A stretch of 64,000 nt of DNA from contig JABVCK010000028.1 of the NCBI GenBank assembly GCA_013540605.1, positions 124,001 to 188,000 on the forward strand. Reading direction: 5' to 3'. This DNA comes from Bacillota bacterium (GTDB lineage Bacteria > Bacillota > Clostridia > Ch29). A model generated the notes under the pieces. It searched no databases and was not told the origin of the DNA. It saw only the letters and a list, made by a program, of their open reading frames with translations. Each line of letters begins with the position of its first letter. The first letter of the stretch is position 1. Shown one piece after another: positions 1 through 60,992 of the stretch. The position numbers and the translations under genes are program-made.

Positions 1-241
1 CCAAAAAAACTGGAACATATAGCAGCACATAGTCCCAGCGTGCAGAGAGTAGTTGTTCATTCAATATCGTCTTGTCCTGTTCATATTGAATGGCTAGATA
101 GCGTGCAGCTAAAAATTCTGTTATCGACTGATGGAAAAAGGAGAGGTCCTGCATAGAAATCGGAGCCATAAAGTACTGTGATTCAATTAGCCAATTAATT
201 ATTACATCTGCATCAAACTCATAGCTATCATTTTTTATCAT
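1..241 (-). CDS. 3' part of the SIR2-NACHT gene, out of frame with the 5' part; runs off the left edge
   Basis: On the minus strand an open frame runs without a stop from an ATG at 241 to the window edge. It reads like the end of a NACHT ATPase region: a helical stretch followed by FFHQSITEFLAARYLA, matching the H-x(4-5)-EFLAA motif that closes many NACHT modules. It is the direct continuation of the gene at 228..2054 if one 10-bp repeat unit is removed. Its ATG lies a few bases upstream of the TGA that ends the upstream frame, so translational re-initiation is conceivable, although no good ribosome binding site is visible. The C-terminal sensor region (often TPR-like repeats in this class) would lie outside the window. 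Confidence 0.75.
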   Translation of the reverse strand, partial: MIKNDSYEFDADVIINWLIESQYFMAPISMQDLSFFHQSITEFLAARYLAIQYEQDKTILNEQLLSARWDYVLLYVPVFL

Positions 242-254
242 TTTTTATCATTTT
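227..254. repeat. 10-bp tandem repeat (ATCATTTTTT, about 2.8 copies) that breaks the SIR2-NACHT frame
   Basis: On the plus strand 231-240 and 241-250 are identical (ttttttatca), preceded by atca and followed by tttt. Ten is not a multiple of three, so each unit gained or lost shifts the frame of the minus-strand gene. With one unit fewer the codons read A-V-K-M-I-K-N-D-S-Y-E-F and join the two halves of the gene with no stop. Confidence 0.9.
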
Positions 255-2054
255 CACTGCAAGTAATTCATATAACTCGACAACCCGAAATCTCTCTGTG
301 CCCTTTTTGCAAAGATTGTATGCGAGTTCTTGGAAAACATCTTCCCAGACAAGACAATACTCAAAACTATCATTAAAAGCAGTGTTCAAGTAGTTAAAAT
401 ACGACCAGAGAGGGCTGATAGGATTGGGATCGCTGTAAAATGTCAGCTTACCTTGTTTAAGTAGATTAAAAAACAGCGGCTTTTGAAAATGCGCAAAGAA
501 TTCTTCTTGGTTGCGATCCGGCATTGTATAGCCGCGTTGCTCCAAGAATTCTCCCACATAGTCCTTTTCTATTTCTAATAAATGGTATTCAGGGAGATAA
601 AGATTATCCAGAGGTTCTTTGAAGCGCGACGCAATAACAACAGTATTTTCGTAGTTATACTTTTTTAATTCATGTAAACATGCGTGATTATCGAGAAACT
701 TCTTATCAACTTCGTTAAATGAGTCTAGAAGTAAAATTATTTTATTGTTTTCTATCCAATCCATGATGGGTATCCCTTCCGGCAACTGCGACTCGATCAT
801 GGTACGAAGGGTACCCTTGCCGGAATAGCCCTTTAAATCTATGTAAATTGGAATTTTAGGAAACGTATTCTCTTTAGGGTTTATGCACCATTTTTGTAGC
901 TTCTCGGCAATTTTAGTGCAATATTGTCTAAGAAAGAATGTCTTTCCAGCCCCGGGATTCCCTGTTAAAATAAAACTTTGAGACGTTGTATTTTGCACAT
1001 CTAAAGAAGAAACATGATCAAAATAAGAACCATCTGCTTTATACCTCTTGAGCATAAGAGGAAACACTATGTCTCCAGGAGTTTTAAATTGCTGTATTAG
1101 ATACCTGGCATAACGCTCTAACTTAAGTTTTTGATTCGAAGTAATCCAAGCGCCTTTCCTTTGTAGTTTCTGCGGAAAGGCCTTTTGAAGGTTTTTCTTA
1201 TTTTTTGTTATAAGGCTCCTCAATAATGGTAGTAAAGAACTATAATCACGCCCATTTTCTGTATGGAGGGTCTCGTAGCTTAAAATCTGAATTCCATAGT
1301 TTAAAAACCAGTAATCTCTCTCGATATTAGAAACATCTGCGACGATGGCGAAGTGATCGCGTGGATTATGCTTGAACTCATTTTTGATTTTACCAATAAT
1401 ATGGAGGAAATCCGGATCAGTCAAACCAAAGCCGATAAAAACGATTGTGCGAGTGAGCAATAGCGTTTCAAGAGTTCTATATACATATGCTTTATCGCCA
1501 TTTTCATATAGACGTTGATATTGCTCAGCGGAAAGAATAATACTTTCACAGTTTCCAACATCTCCGTGTGGCTTGAAAATAAAGTTCTTTTTTCTAATGT
1601 GAACTATTGCCGCACAATCCATTGCCTTTCGATTGCTTACTACCTCGTATTGCTCTAACAGTCCGCGTTGTTGTAATGTTTGCTCTAAAAGCGAATCATA
1701 GTTTGTCGTGATATAGCAAGATGAACCCAAGTCAGCTATGAGTTCATGGATCAAATGCGGCTTTGCAGCATCAACTCGGCAAGATGAACGTATGAAATTG
1801 GCAAATTCGTCTTCATTGAGTATATTACGACCAATTCCAGCCGCAATAAGGGGCTGGGTATCTTTGTAAAAACGAACATCTGCCGAGCTAATACCCTTAT
1901 TTTCTATGAATGCAACCAGTTCATCTAAAAGTCTCTGCCAACTCGGCAATCCTGACCAAGCGGAAACCCCGGAACCAATAAATAAAACAGTCCCCTCGTT
2001 GGTCAAAGCTTTCTTTATTTTCTTATGCAACTGGCTATTAGTTAACTTTTCCAT
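228..2054 (-). CDS. SIR2-domain NACHT/STAND NTPase (anti-phage type), truncated by frameshift
   Basis: The 608 codons start at ATG 2054, preceded by AAGGTGAAG. Residues about 1-290 are a SIR2_2-type domain: glycine-rich IGSGVS (26-31), TTNYD (116-120), KPHGD with the probable catalytic His163, and GFGLTDPDF (208-216). Residues from about 360 are a P-loop NTPase with Walker A GNPGAGKT (365-372) and Walker B IILLLDSFNE (439-448). Proteins of this layout (Avs5/SIR2-STAND and SIR2-NACHT groups) are known to sense phage and deplete NAD+. Whether this one does is inferred. The frame ends at a TGA created by a 10-bp tandem duplication at 231-250, before the C-terminal NACHT helices and the sensor domain, so the product as read should be inactive or altered. 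Confidence 0.85.
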   Translation of the reverse strand: MEKLTNSQLHKKIKKALTNEGTVLFIGSGVSAWSGLPSWQRLLDELVAFIENKGISSADVRFYKDTQPLIAAGIGRNILNEDEFANFIRSSCRVDAAKPHLIHELIADLGSSCYITTNYDSLLEQTLQQRGLLEQYEVVSNRKAMDCAAIVHIRKKNFIFKPHGDVGNCESIILSAEQYQRLYENGDKAYVYRTLETLLLTRTIVFIGFGLTDPDFLHIIGKIKNEFKHNPRDHFAIVADVSNIERDYWFLNYGIQILSYETLHTENGRDYSSLLPLLRSLITKNKKNLQKAFPQKLQRKGAWITSNQKLKLERYARYLIQQFKTPGDIVFPLMLKRYKADGSYFDHVSSLDVQNTTSQSFILTGNPGAGKTFFLRQYCTKIAEKLQKWCINPKENTFPKIPIYIDLKGYSGKGTLRTMIESQLPEGIPIMDWIENNKIILLLDSFNEVDKKFLDNHACLHELKKYNYENTVVIASRFKEPLDNLYLPEYHLLEIEKDYVGEFLEQRGYTMPDRNQEEFFAHFQKPLFFNLLKQGKLTFYSDPNPISPLWSYFNYLNTAFNDSFEYCLVWEDVFQELAYNLCKKGTERFRVVELYELLAVKMIKNDKK

Positions 2055-2493: not shown

Positions 2494-2570
2494 TGGTGCG
2501 CCCTGAGGGACTCGAACCCCCGACCAACTGATTCGAAGTCAGCGACTCTATCCGACTGAGCTAAGGGCGC
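2494..2570 (-). tRNA. tRNA-Arg (anticodon TCG)
   Basis: The acceptor stem GCGCCCT/AGGGCGC, D-loop AGTCGGA, anticodon loop CTTCGAA and T-loop GTTCGAG are all visible. CCA is encoded (tgg at 2494-2496 on the plus strand). It is the last gene of the tRNA cluster and precedes the terminator. Confidence 0.95.
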
Positions 2571-2587
2571 ATATTATTTTAATTAGT

Positions 2588-2661
2588 TGGAGCGGGTGAT
2601 GGGAATCGAACCCACGCGACTAGCTTGGAAGGCTAGGGCTCTACCATTGAGCTACACCCGC
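2588..2661 (-). tRNA. tRNA-Gly (anticodon TCC), copy 1
   Basis: The 74-nt cloverleaf has acceptor GCGGGTG/CACCCGC, anticodon loop CTTCCAA and T-loop GTTCGAT, with encoded CCA. It is identical over its whole length to the first gene of the cluster at 3032-3105. Confidence 0.95.
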
Positions 2662-2687
2662 ACATCATCATGCTCATTGAAGAATAA

Positions 2688-2763
2688 TGGTGACCCATCC
2701 GCGACTCGAACGCGGGACACCCTGATTAAAAGTCAGGTGCTCTGCCGACTGAGCTAATGGGTC
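2688..2763 (-). tRNA. tRNA-Lys (anticodon TTT)
   Basis: The acceptor is GACCCAT/ATGGGTC, the anticodon loop CTTTTAA in a CTGA/TCAG stem and the T-loop GTTCGAG, with encoded CCA. It is 76 nt long. Confidence 0.95.
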
Positions 2764-2769
2764 ACTAAA

Positions 2770-2845
2770 TGGCTGGGGCGGCAGGACTCGAACCTACGGA
2801 TGCCAGAGTCAAAGTCTGGTGCCTTACCGACTTGGCGACGCCCCA
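2770..2845 (-). tRNA. tRNA-Gln (anticodon TTG)
   Basis: The acceptor is TGGGGCG/CGCCCCA, the anticodon loop CTTTGAC in a CCAGA/TCTGG stem and the T-loop GTTCGAG, with encoded CCA. The U1-A72 pair is typical of tRNA-Gln and fits a GatCAB organism, which charges it through Glu-tRNA(Gln). Confidence 0.95.
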
Positions 2846-2863
2846 TCATTATATTTTATATTT

Positions 2864-2940
<77 letters not shown>

Positions 2941-2949
2941 CATATCATT

Positions 2950-3026
2950 TGGCGCGCCTGCAGGGACTCGAACCCCGGGCACACGGATTAGAAGTCCGTT
3001 GCTCTATCCACCTGAGCTACAGGCGC
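2950..3026 (-). tRNA. tRNA-Arg (anticodon TCT)
   Basis: The acceptor is GCGCCTG/CAGGCGC, the anticodon loop CTTCTAA in a CGGA/TCCG stem and the T-loop GTTCGAG, with encoded CCA. It is 77 nt long and reads AGA codons. Confidence 0.95.
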
Positions 3027-3031
3027 ATATT

Positions 3032-3105
3032 TGGAGCGGGTGATGGGAATCGAACCCACGCGACTAGCTTGGAAGGCTAGGGCTCTACCATTGAGCTACA
3101 CCCGC
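3032..3105 (-). tRNA. tRNA-Gly (anticodon TCC), copy 2
   Basis: First gene of the cluster on the minus strand, identical to the copy at 2588-2661. The transcript order is Gly-Arg-His-Gln-Lys-Gly-Arg. Confidence 0.95.
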
Positions 3106-6253: not shown

Positions 6254-6346
6254 CTATCAGTGGCCAGTGATCAGTGATCAGTGGCTAGCACCTAGGACCT
6301 AGTACCTAGCACCTGGAACTGGGAACTGGGAACTAAAAACTGAGCT
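6254..6346. repeat. Heptamer-word repeat island (family B)
   Basis: The sequence reads as successive 7-bp words with drifting identity: CAGTGGC CAGTGAT CAGTGAT CAGTGGC, then TAGCACC TAGGACC TAGTACC TAGCACC, then TGGAACT GGGAACT GGGAACT. It has no coding potential and lies in the gap between gerM and the UPF0316 gene. Similar islands occur at 11545, 28555, 38950, 40934, 42660 and 60862. Confidence 0.8.
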
Positions 6347-12194: not shown

Positions 12195-13052
12195 ATGCAA
12201 GGCTACGAAGACACCCTTATTGAAAGCTTTATCAAAGTGGCGCCCTATATCAATCCGCTGACAATAAGGGATATAGCTGTTACAATCTCAGACCGCAATA
12301 AAATACTATCATATACACCGGGTAAAAAACTGAACCACGGGATTAAACCGGGTGACCCGGTAAAGGAAAATTCCCTGGTATACATGGCGATGAAAGAGGA
12401 GAAAATTGTCGCAAAGAAAATTAGTAAAGAGCTTTACGGCATCCCCTATTGTGGGGTTGGAATTCCCTTAAGAAACGAACAGACAGGTGAGGTCGTTGGA
12501 GCTGTTGCCTTTGCGGAGAATACCGAGAACCAGGATACGATGAGGGATATGGCCTTCCAGCTTTCCTCAAGCATTCAGACCGTAAACGAATCCACCCAGA
12601 CCGTAGCTGCCCAGGCACAGGAACTAGCCACACTGGCCCAAAGGCTGAATGATATTTCCAACGTTTCATACGAACAGATAAAAAAGGTCGATGAGATAGT
12701 TGACTTTATAAAGGGTATCGCGTCACAAACCAATCTTCTTGGACTGAATGCCGCCATCGAGGCAGCCAGGGCCGGGGCAGCCGGAAACGGTTTCGGCGTT
12801 GTTGCCAGCGAGATAAGAAAACTTTCAATGCAAAGCAGCGATTCGGTGGAGCGCATTCAAGCAACTCTTCAGCAGATCAAGAAAGGTAGTGAAGAGATTA
12901 AGCGGTCGGTCGAGATTTTGGAGAATATATCTAACAACCAGGCTTCAATTTTTCAATCGGTGGCCAGCTCTATAGAAGAAGCCACCGCTATGGTTGAAGA
13001 ACTCTCCAGCTATGCCGACAACCTCTCCCAGAGCGAATACCTGCAAGATTAA
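12195..13052 (+). CDS. Soluble methyl-accepting chemotaxis protein (YfmS-like)
   Basis: The 285-residue cytoplasmic chemoreceptor starts at ATG 12195 after AAAGGGAGTG. No transmembrane segment is visible. Residues 1-110 form a small ligand-sensing domain ([21 protein letters not shown]). The coiled-coil signalling domain is centred on [17 protein letters not shown] (about 180-196) and [13 protein letters not shown]. Length and layout match the B. subtilis soluble receptor YfmS (about 286 residues). It should couple through CheW/CheA; the ligand is unknown. A hairpin repeat starts directly after its stop. Confidence 0.9.
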
Positions 13053-13053
13053 T

Positions 13054-13134
13054 GAGACACGGGGACGGTTCTTGAATGAGACACGGGGACGGTTCTTGTG
13101 TCTGGGACAGACACAAGAACCGTCCCCGTGTCTC
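13054..13134. repeat. Family A hairpin repeat, three units with GACAC/GTGTC arms
   Basis: Unit 1 (13054-13073) and unit 2 (13078-13103) share gagacac + ggggacggttctt. Unit 2 closes with gtgtct. Unit 3 (13109-13134) is the exact inverse, giving a palindrome with 26-bp arms and a 5-nt centre (gggac). Two inverse cores within one island resemble paired REP/BIME elements. It starts 2 bp after the chemoreceptor stop codon and could also act as a terminator structure. Confidence 0.9.
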
Positions 13135-13200
13135 CCACCCGTGTCTCCCAATTCGTCCCACTGATGGTTTGAACAATATCTATGAAAGAAGGTATCAATT

Positions 13201-28554: not shown

Positions 28555-28680
28555 ACCAGATGACAGACGTCAGGGAGTGCTTATGGGAGATACCCAAAGG
28601 CATAACCCAGTTCCTGTGATCTGTGATCTAGCCCCATCCCCTGCGATCTGCGATCTGCGAACTGCGATCTATTATCTAAA
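28555..28680. repeat. Heptamer-word repeat island (family B)
   Basis: Contains the core segment agtgcttatggga (28576-28588), then CTGTGAT CTGTGAT CTAG words and CTGCGAT CTGCGAT CTGCGAA CTGCGAT CTATTAT. It abuts the stop codon of pcrA at 28676. Confidence 0.75.
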
Positions 28681-30915: not shown

Positions 30916-31027
30916 TATATCAAGGGACCGGTCCCTTGATATAACATAAAACAACCCCAGTATATCATGGGTATATCATGGGGACGGTTCTTCTGATATA
31001 TATCATGGGGACGGTTCTTCTGATATA
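30916..31027. repeat. Family A hairpins with TATATCA/TGATATA arms
   Basis: A 28-bp perfect palindrome (30916-30943: tatatcaagggacc/ggtcccttgatata) is followed by two tandem units, each tatatca + tggggacggttcttc + tgatata (30972-31000 and 30999-31027). The repeat supplies the stop codon of the gene remnant that ends at 31003. The pcrA upstream flank also holds a duplicated attagattctacc at 30868-30893. Confidence 0.9.
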
Positions 31028-38688: not shown

Positions 38689-38892
38689 AATGCACATCCT
38701 CTTCCATAATATTCTAACATCATTTTATAACACATGTCCCCCTAAACACAAGTGCATTTTACGGTTTTTAGCTGTTTTCATAGTCAATTTTGCTGATATT
38801 TCAGGATTATACCGTTAATTTTTAGTGTTTTCCCCATAATGCGAGAATCAAAAGCAGCCCATCGTTGATTGAGTACGGGCTGCCAATCCGAA

Positions 38893-38947
38893 CACGGAAC
38901 ACGGGGACGGGACGGGACACGGGGACGGGATACGGGGACAGGTATCC
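38893..38947. repeat. Family A repeat cluster, last unit with GGATAC/GTATCC arms
   Basis: Three tandem cores (acggggacgg) with different left arms (ggaacac, gggacac, gggatac). Only the last has both arms: ggatac (38928-38933), ggggacag, gtatcc (38942-38947). It is another arm sequence with both sides changed. Confidence 0.7.
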
Positions 38948-40933: not shown

Positions 40934-41052
40934 CCCGACCAGTACCAGTTATCAGATGACAGTGGCTAGTGACCAGTGGCCAGTGGCTAGTGACCAGTGG
41001 CCAGTGGCTAGGACCTGTGATCTGTCGACTGCGATCTATATCTACGAAGTAC
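40934..41052. repeat. Heptamer-word repeat island (family B)
   Basis: CAGTGGC TAGTGAC CAGTGGC CAGTGGC TAGTGAC CAGTGGC CAGTGGC TAGGACC, then CTGTGAT CTGTCGA CTGCGAT words. It is one of the cleanest 7-bp registers in the window. A diverged family A fragment (gtgtccccttt, twice) follows at 41066-41101. Confidence 0.85.
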
Positions 41053-42659: not shown

Positions 42660-42868
42660 CATCAGTGGTCAGTGGCCAGTGGTCAGTAATGTCAAAAATT
42701 GGAAAGTCAACAGTTGCCAGTTATCAGATGCCAGTTGCCAGCTATCAGTTGTCAGAATAAAGACTTCAGAGGCTTACCCTGATGCCTGTGATCTGTGATC
42801 TGTGATCTAAGGTCTATTATCTAGCACCTGTGATCTACGAACTACCAACTACCAACTGCGAACTAAAA
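42660..42868. repeat. Heptamer-word repeat island (family B) inside the pur operon
   Basis: CAGTGGT CAGTGGC CAGTGGT CAGTAAT, then CAGTTGC CAGTTAT CAGATGC CAGTTGC CAGCTAT CAGTTGT, core aggcttaccct (42770-42780), then CTGTGAT three times, CTAAGGT CTATTAT CTAGCAC CTGTGAT CTACGAA CTACCAA CTACCAA CTGCGAA. It is the longest island and lies between purH and purD, so it should be transcribed. Confidence 0.85.
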
Positions 42869-60734: not shown

Positions 60735-60861
60735 GTCAGGCTTGTCAAAACGGAAGCAGAAGCATGGAAGCATGGGCAAGTGGAAGCATGGGCAAGTGGA
60801 AGCATGGGTGTGAAGCATGGAAGCATGGGCATGGAAGCATGGGGACGGTTCTTTTGCTTCC
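60735..60861. repeat. Family A repeat array with GGAAGCA/TGCTTCC arms
   Basis: Five to six tandem ggaagcatggg units with short spacers (caagt, tgt) lead to one complete unit: ggaagca (60833-60839), tggggacggttcttt, tgcttcc (60855-60861). The arm sequence is shared with the copy at 53461. Here the left arm alone has been amplified. Confidence 0.9.
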
Positions 60862-60992
60862 GCAGATCGCAGTCGGCAGATCGCAGATATTAAATCACAG
60901 GTCGCAGGTGCTAGGTGCTAGGTACTAGGTGCTAGGTACTAGGTGCTAGGTACTAGGTGCTAGCCACTGGCCACTGATAACTGGCAACTATG
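60862..60992. repeat. Heptamer-word repeat island (family B), inverse orientation
   Basis: CGCAGAT words are followed by AGGTGCT AGGTGCT AGGTACT AGGTGCT AGGTACT AGGTGCT AGGTACT AGGTGCT, then AGCCACT GGCCACT GATAACT GGCAACT. The 7-bp period is nearly perfect over eight units. Together with 60735-60861 it fills the 440-bp gap between the antiporter and the toxin gene, in which I see no gene. Confidence 0.9.

Follow-up and report, generated by a model that had tools for sequence, protein, structure and literature searches.

The split gene and its repeat array

The window, a stretch of 64,000 nucleotides of contig JABVCK010000028.1 in a Bacillota assembly (GCA_013540605.1), begins inside a gene that is read on the reverse strand and is divided between two overlapping open reading frames. 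The second of these runs out of the window into the surrounding segment of the contig (116001-128000, here L002), on which coordinates are marked as such; a window position equals the L002 position minus 8000. The features of the gene are the following.

Window 228-2054, minus strand: ORF1, 608 aa, a SIR2-like NADase domain and a NACHT-like NTPase, cut short by a TGA at 228-230
Window 1689-1709, minus strand: motif TTNYDSL, which contains Asn118, predicted to be catalytic
Window 1554-1574, minus strand: motif KPHGDVG, which contains His163, predicted to be catalytic
Window 939-962, minus strand: Walker A motif GNPGAGKT of a P-loop NTPase of NACHT/STAND type, after the SIR2 domain
Window 708-737, minus strand: Walker B region ILLLDSFNEV, found by inspection
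Window 226-254, minus strand: perfect tandem array of 29 bp, 2.9 copies of a 10-bp unit, of AAAATGATAA type on the coding strand
Window 1-241, continuing to L002:6439 (L002:6439-8241), minus strand: ORF2, 601 aa, the last part of the NACHT module followed by a C-terminal region, the presumed sensor
Window 95-136, minus strand: NACHT-closing motif FHQSITEFLAARYL in the second frame (ORF2), found by inspection

A sequence-only reading of the window had placed a frame break by a TGA at codon 608, at a repeat, and ORF1 indeed encodes 608 residues ending in ...MIKNDKK before that stop. ORF2 starts with an ATG at 239-241 and overlaps ORF1 by 14 nt, and GC3 is similar in the two open halves (0.366 and 0.363). 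Taking out one repeat unit yields a single frame of 1202 codons when computed on the whole contig, so that the rescue predicted from deleting one unit holds, and the one-unit form was moreover observed as an allele in another assembly (see below). The restored frame had been followed to the window edge; it is open there, but it does not end there, the second frame running on for 601 codons. The same reading was mistaken in one assignment: the ATG overlapping the stop, in the letters ATGA, lies not in the second frame but in the third, where a stop follows after 9 codons. Two-protein expression, which had been proposed on the strength of that ATG, is possible, but no Shine-Dalgarno-like sequence was seen before the true ORF2 start, and the proposal is thus left without ribosome-binding-site support.

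The two exact adjoining copies of TTTTTTATCA that had been reported at 231-240 and 241-250 were confirmed, and they form part of the longer array at 226-254. The unit of this array, 10 bp long and lying in a reading frame, is not divisible by three, and within the window no other tandem array of such a period lies well inside a recognisable gene. When the window was simulated 100 times with a second-order Markov model, no period-10 array as long as this one arose, nor did any array of period 7-30 with at least 19 matching bases. Even the form with one unit fewer has, on the coding strand close to where the NACHT module ends, a 9-bp direct repeat, AAAATGATA, whose copies are spaced by 10 bp.

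Domain composition and relation to known defence proteins

ORF1 has a SIR2-like domain, with a match to SIR2_2 (PF13289) at E=8.3e-30 and 104.2 bits against a curated cut-off of 24.5. The closest known defence proteins to this domain are ThsA and DSR2, and in an alignment their catalytic Asn and His fall on N118 (of TTNYD) and H163 (of HGD); in DSR2 the catalytic pair is N133/H171 (PMC11087589). For the following NTPase, Walker A and B are present and the NACHT profile (PF05729) matched with E=0.001 and 19.4 bits, below the curated cut-off of 26.7, hence we call the domain NACHT-like. With this qualification, the SIR2 plus NACHT-like identity read from the letters is supported. A weak match to the NACHT antiphage protein EruA was found at ORF2 residues 21-64, and a fold predicted for the NACHT region from its one sequence reached a pLDDT of 39 and was discarded. 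Profile searches of the C-terminal region in ORF2 returned no confident family match, so that the term sensor is a presumption; the region shares one polypeptide with the NACHT module in the unbroken allele described below, but not in the window allele. Taken together, the gene is best explained as encoding a putative bacterial NLR-like protein composed of a SIR2 NADase effector, a NACHT-type NTPase and a C-terminal presumed sensor, and judged by its domains the product is most likely an abortive-infection anti-phage protein.

Several known systems share parts of this composition. The bNACHT, or NLR-related, antiphage proteins (PMC12169576) likewise have an N-terminal effector, a central NACHT-like NTPase and a C-terminal presumed sensor, whereas the gene described here has a SIR2 effector where bNACHT25/32 have a nuclease, a NACHT score below the Pfam cut-off and a frame split by a repeat. 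Avs5 (AVAST type 5, PMC12931631) also joins a SIR2 NADase, a STAND NTPase and a sensor; on the side of differences, the PADLOC matches here, from a set of models in which Avs5 may be missing, included none for Avs, and the present protein has the canonical HG motif. ThsA of Thoeris and DSR2 resemble it in the SIR2 domain and its aligned catalytic Asn and His, but differ in that here a NACHT-like NTPase follows the SIR2 domain. The NCBIfam Dsr2 equivalog model scored 43.2 bits against a cut-off of 1400. No gene for a ThsB TIR partner was seen among the neighbours, which include a HipA-like kinase, transposases, SatD and DUF3307, and given the NACHT-like NTPase and the lack of a TIR partner nearby, we rejected an identification as ThsA of Thoeris.

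Homologues of the same architecture were not found in relatives, the class, the phylum, plasmids, phages or viral contigs, where only Thoeris-type SIR2 or generic NACHT proteins were recovered, and the junction is therefore not comparable across species. Similarity of the NACHT module end, taken by itself, to a distant NACHT protein (L012) was not significant, 48 of 500 shuffles scoring as high, so that the argument for a continuous gene rests on the unbroken allele and not on homology.

An unbroken allele in a second assembly

When the one-unit read-through protein was used to query one genome from each of 84,980 species, with search patterns that favour close relatives, exactly one relative was returned, a 6,590-bp contig (JASEIZ010000118.1, here L019) in the metagenome-assembled genome (MAG) of Desulfobacterales bacterium isolate Yes71-19. 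It aligns over its full length to L002:9466-2881; the 6,576 aligned bases contain not a single substitution, and the alignment has two gaps. One gap corresponds precisely to a single 10-bp unit that the window's genome has and L019 lacks. The other consists of ten Ns and a 4-nt overlap, which is a scaffold join, and we rejected it as a real difference. L019 is open in one frame for 1006 codons: the frame enters within the SIR2 domain, crosses the site and closes at the stop that naturally ends ORF2, the first 196 codons of the gene lying beyond the end of the contig. Over the stretch covered by L019, the one-unit reading is thus an observed allele, and full-frame and broken alleles both exist in otherwise identical environmental DNA. 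A relative with the same two units that still reads in frame, which would have spoken against a disrupted gene, was looked for, and the only near-identical sequence found has one unit fewer. By the rule of three, the absence of substitutions in 6,576 sites places divergence below about 5e-4 per site, and this near-zero divergence indicates that the unit number changed recently.

A contig of a Desulfobacterales MAG that is identical to a Bacillota genome over 6.6 kb has probably been mis-binned, or else reflects a very recent transfer. Both ends of L019 fall within genes, and when 30 kb of adjoining window DNA was compared with the Yes71-19 MAG, nothing near-identical turned up; within that MAG the L019 stretch alone is near-identical to the window's genome. 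A transfer of the locus into Desulfobacterales is less likely than mis-binning in view of the mid-gene breaks and the unmatched neighbouring DNA, and we infer that L019 derives from the window's organism, or from one nearly identical to it, living in the community that was sampled. Isolates and MAGs from the Yessentuki mineral water field have been published (PMC9686372, PMC11708057), the second paper giving the projects PRJNA760784 and PRJNA1083965; the name Yes71 would fit well 71 of that field, and by its name Yes71-19 may belong to these projects. The genes of the window, judged from their open reading frames, look like those of an anaerobic, spore-forming member of Bacillota, and a search for 16S in the window's genome gave no match, so that this genome, too, is probably a MAG.

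Proposed slipped-strand switching and its alternatives

We propose that slipped-strand replication at the AAAATGATA repeat could add or remove one 10-bp unit. The extra unit extends the 9-bp direct repeat to 2.9 copies, which is the classical geometry for gain and loss by slippage, and since 10 does not divide by three, every gain or loss would change the frame. With the extra unit, the predicted product would stop at 608 residues, before the NACHT module is complete, and would lack all of the C-terminal region with the presumed sensor; with the unit absent, a protein of 1202 residues would be made. The state of defence would then be ON or OFF with the unit number, and the cost of the system may be what drives the change. 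On this reading, which we consider probable, unit gain and loss by slippage toggles an NLR-like NADase gene at a site that is mutable and polymorphic, and the allele in the window is the split one, presumably OFF. Against it stand the comparison of only two sequences, the low coverage of L019 and its place in a MAG of another phylum, a copy number of 2-3 that is short for a classical contingency locus, and the sub-threshold NACHT score. The stronger form, a true reversible contingency locus whose 10-bp repeat toggles between a sensor-bearing full form and a sensorless SIR2-NACHT fragment, with armed and disarmed cells coexisting in the environmental population, is a tentative and rather doubtful extension.

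Precedents for such switching are known from other genes. Phase variation has been noted for the defence gene PglX of BREX/Pgl (PMC9122589), and in icaC a short tandem repeat toggles the gene reversibly under a fitness cost (PMC4117637). In both, as would be the case here, frame-shifting variation turns a costly gene on or off, while the present site differs in its 10-bp unit, its 1.9 or 2.9 copies and its NLR-like gene, and is seen as two alleles. For SIR2-NACHT genes, our search of the open-access literature turned up no description of phase variation. Immunity by cell suicide is costly, and repeat-driven switching has been proposed as bet-hedging, documented mainly for methylation-based systems; an NLR-like bacterial gene with full-frame and broken alleles offers a clean, testable case, at one locus.

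The chances are about even that the window records a one-off recent inactivation, in which a single duplication arose in its lineage, no switch is maintained, and L019 retains the ancestral allele. Such a duplication may have been neutral, or favoured because an NADase defence is costly; the one-unit frame encodes the whole gene and would therefore be ancestral, and one event suffices to explain two alleles. The few repeat copies and the failure to find a homologue with a conserved array among relatives, class and phylum also favour inactivation and, together with the mere two sequences, speak against a switch. On the other hand, such duplications can by their nature revert, so that even after an accidental first event the site would stay mutable, and no substitution separates the alleles. 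For a switch, one may further point to the array as the only one of non-3n period well inside a recognisable window gene, to the existence of both alleles and, by analogy, to icaC and PglX.

It is improbable that the organism has a single allele and that the second came about through an error of assembly or sequencing in one of the sources. Both alleles are known here from assemblies alone, L019 is of low coverage (4.2x in its record title), mis-binned or scaffolded across its 10-N join, and the window's genome, as stated, is itself probably a MAG. However, k-mers of at least 20 are all unique at the site in both alleles, which makes collapse or invention of a unit by assembly unlikely, and the alignment is otherwise free of errors over 6.58 kb. 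We give a similarly small chance to the two-unit form still yielding a full-length or two-part protein. RNA polymerase might lose one A in the A6 run, or a +1 shift might occur at AAA-TGA, in either case fusing the frames with few extra residues, or ORF2 might be made separately from the ATG at 239-241 by translational coupling. In silico, loss of one A gives the open frame ...MIKNDKNDSYEFD... with three extra residues, and the 14-nt overlap and the initial ATG of ORF2 would suit coupling. Yet an A6 run is short for efficient slippage, the ORF2 start has nothing resembling a Shine-Dalgarno sequence before it, and, given the single-frame allele, function does not require a split form. Some frame leakage may occur in the two-unit allele all the same, because loss of one A from the A6 of the transcript would restore the frame.

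Neighbouring genes and other repeats

Directly downstream of the split gene and on the same strand, L002:5683-6393 (minus) encodes a protein of 236 aa with weak HipA-like / actin-fragmin-kinase similarity, and a 67-aa ORF in another frame (L002:5489-5692, minus) overlaps it. The HipA-like gene is possibly a partner of the SIR2-NACHT gene, or is possibly itself frameshifted. Mobile elements lie close by: a Mutator/IS256-type transposase at L002:4076-5265 (plus) has a stop codon near L002:4949, its second piece continuing the same Pfam model, and an IS3-type element occupies L002:469-1621. Immediately upstream of the accessory locus, at window 2494-3105, are seven tRNA genes (Arg, Gly, Lys, Gln, His, Arg, Gly), a possible insertion hotspot.

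Two other kinds of repeat were seen in the window. Clusters of degenerate 7-bp tandem repeats of CAGTGGC, CTGTGAT and AGGTGCT types, mostly intergenic, are located at 6256-6334, 28614-28670, 40937-41019, 42662-42865 and 60759-60963. Short tandem repeats with a common GGGGACGG core (GGGGACGGTTCTTG and similar) occur at 13051-13150, 30972-31027 and 38890-38939, and look like dispersed repeat elements.
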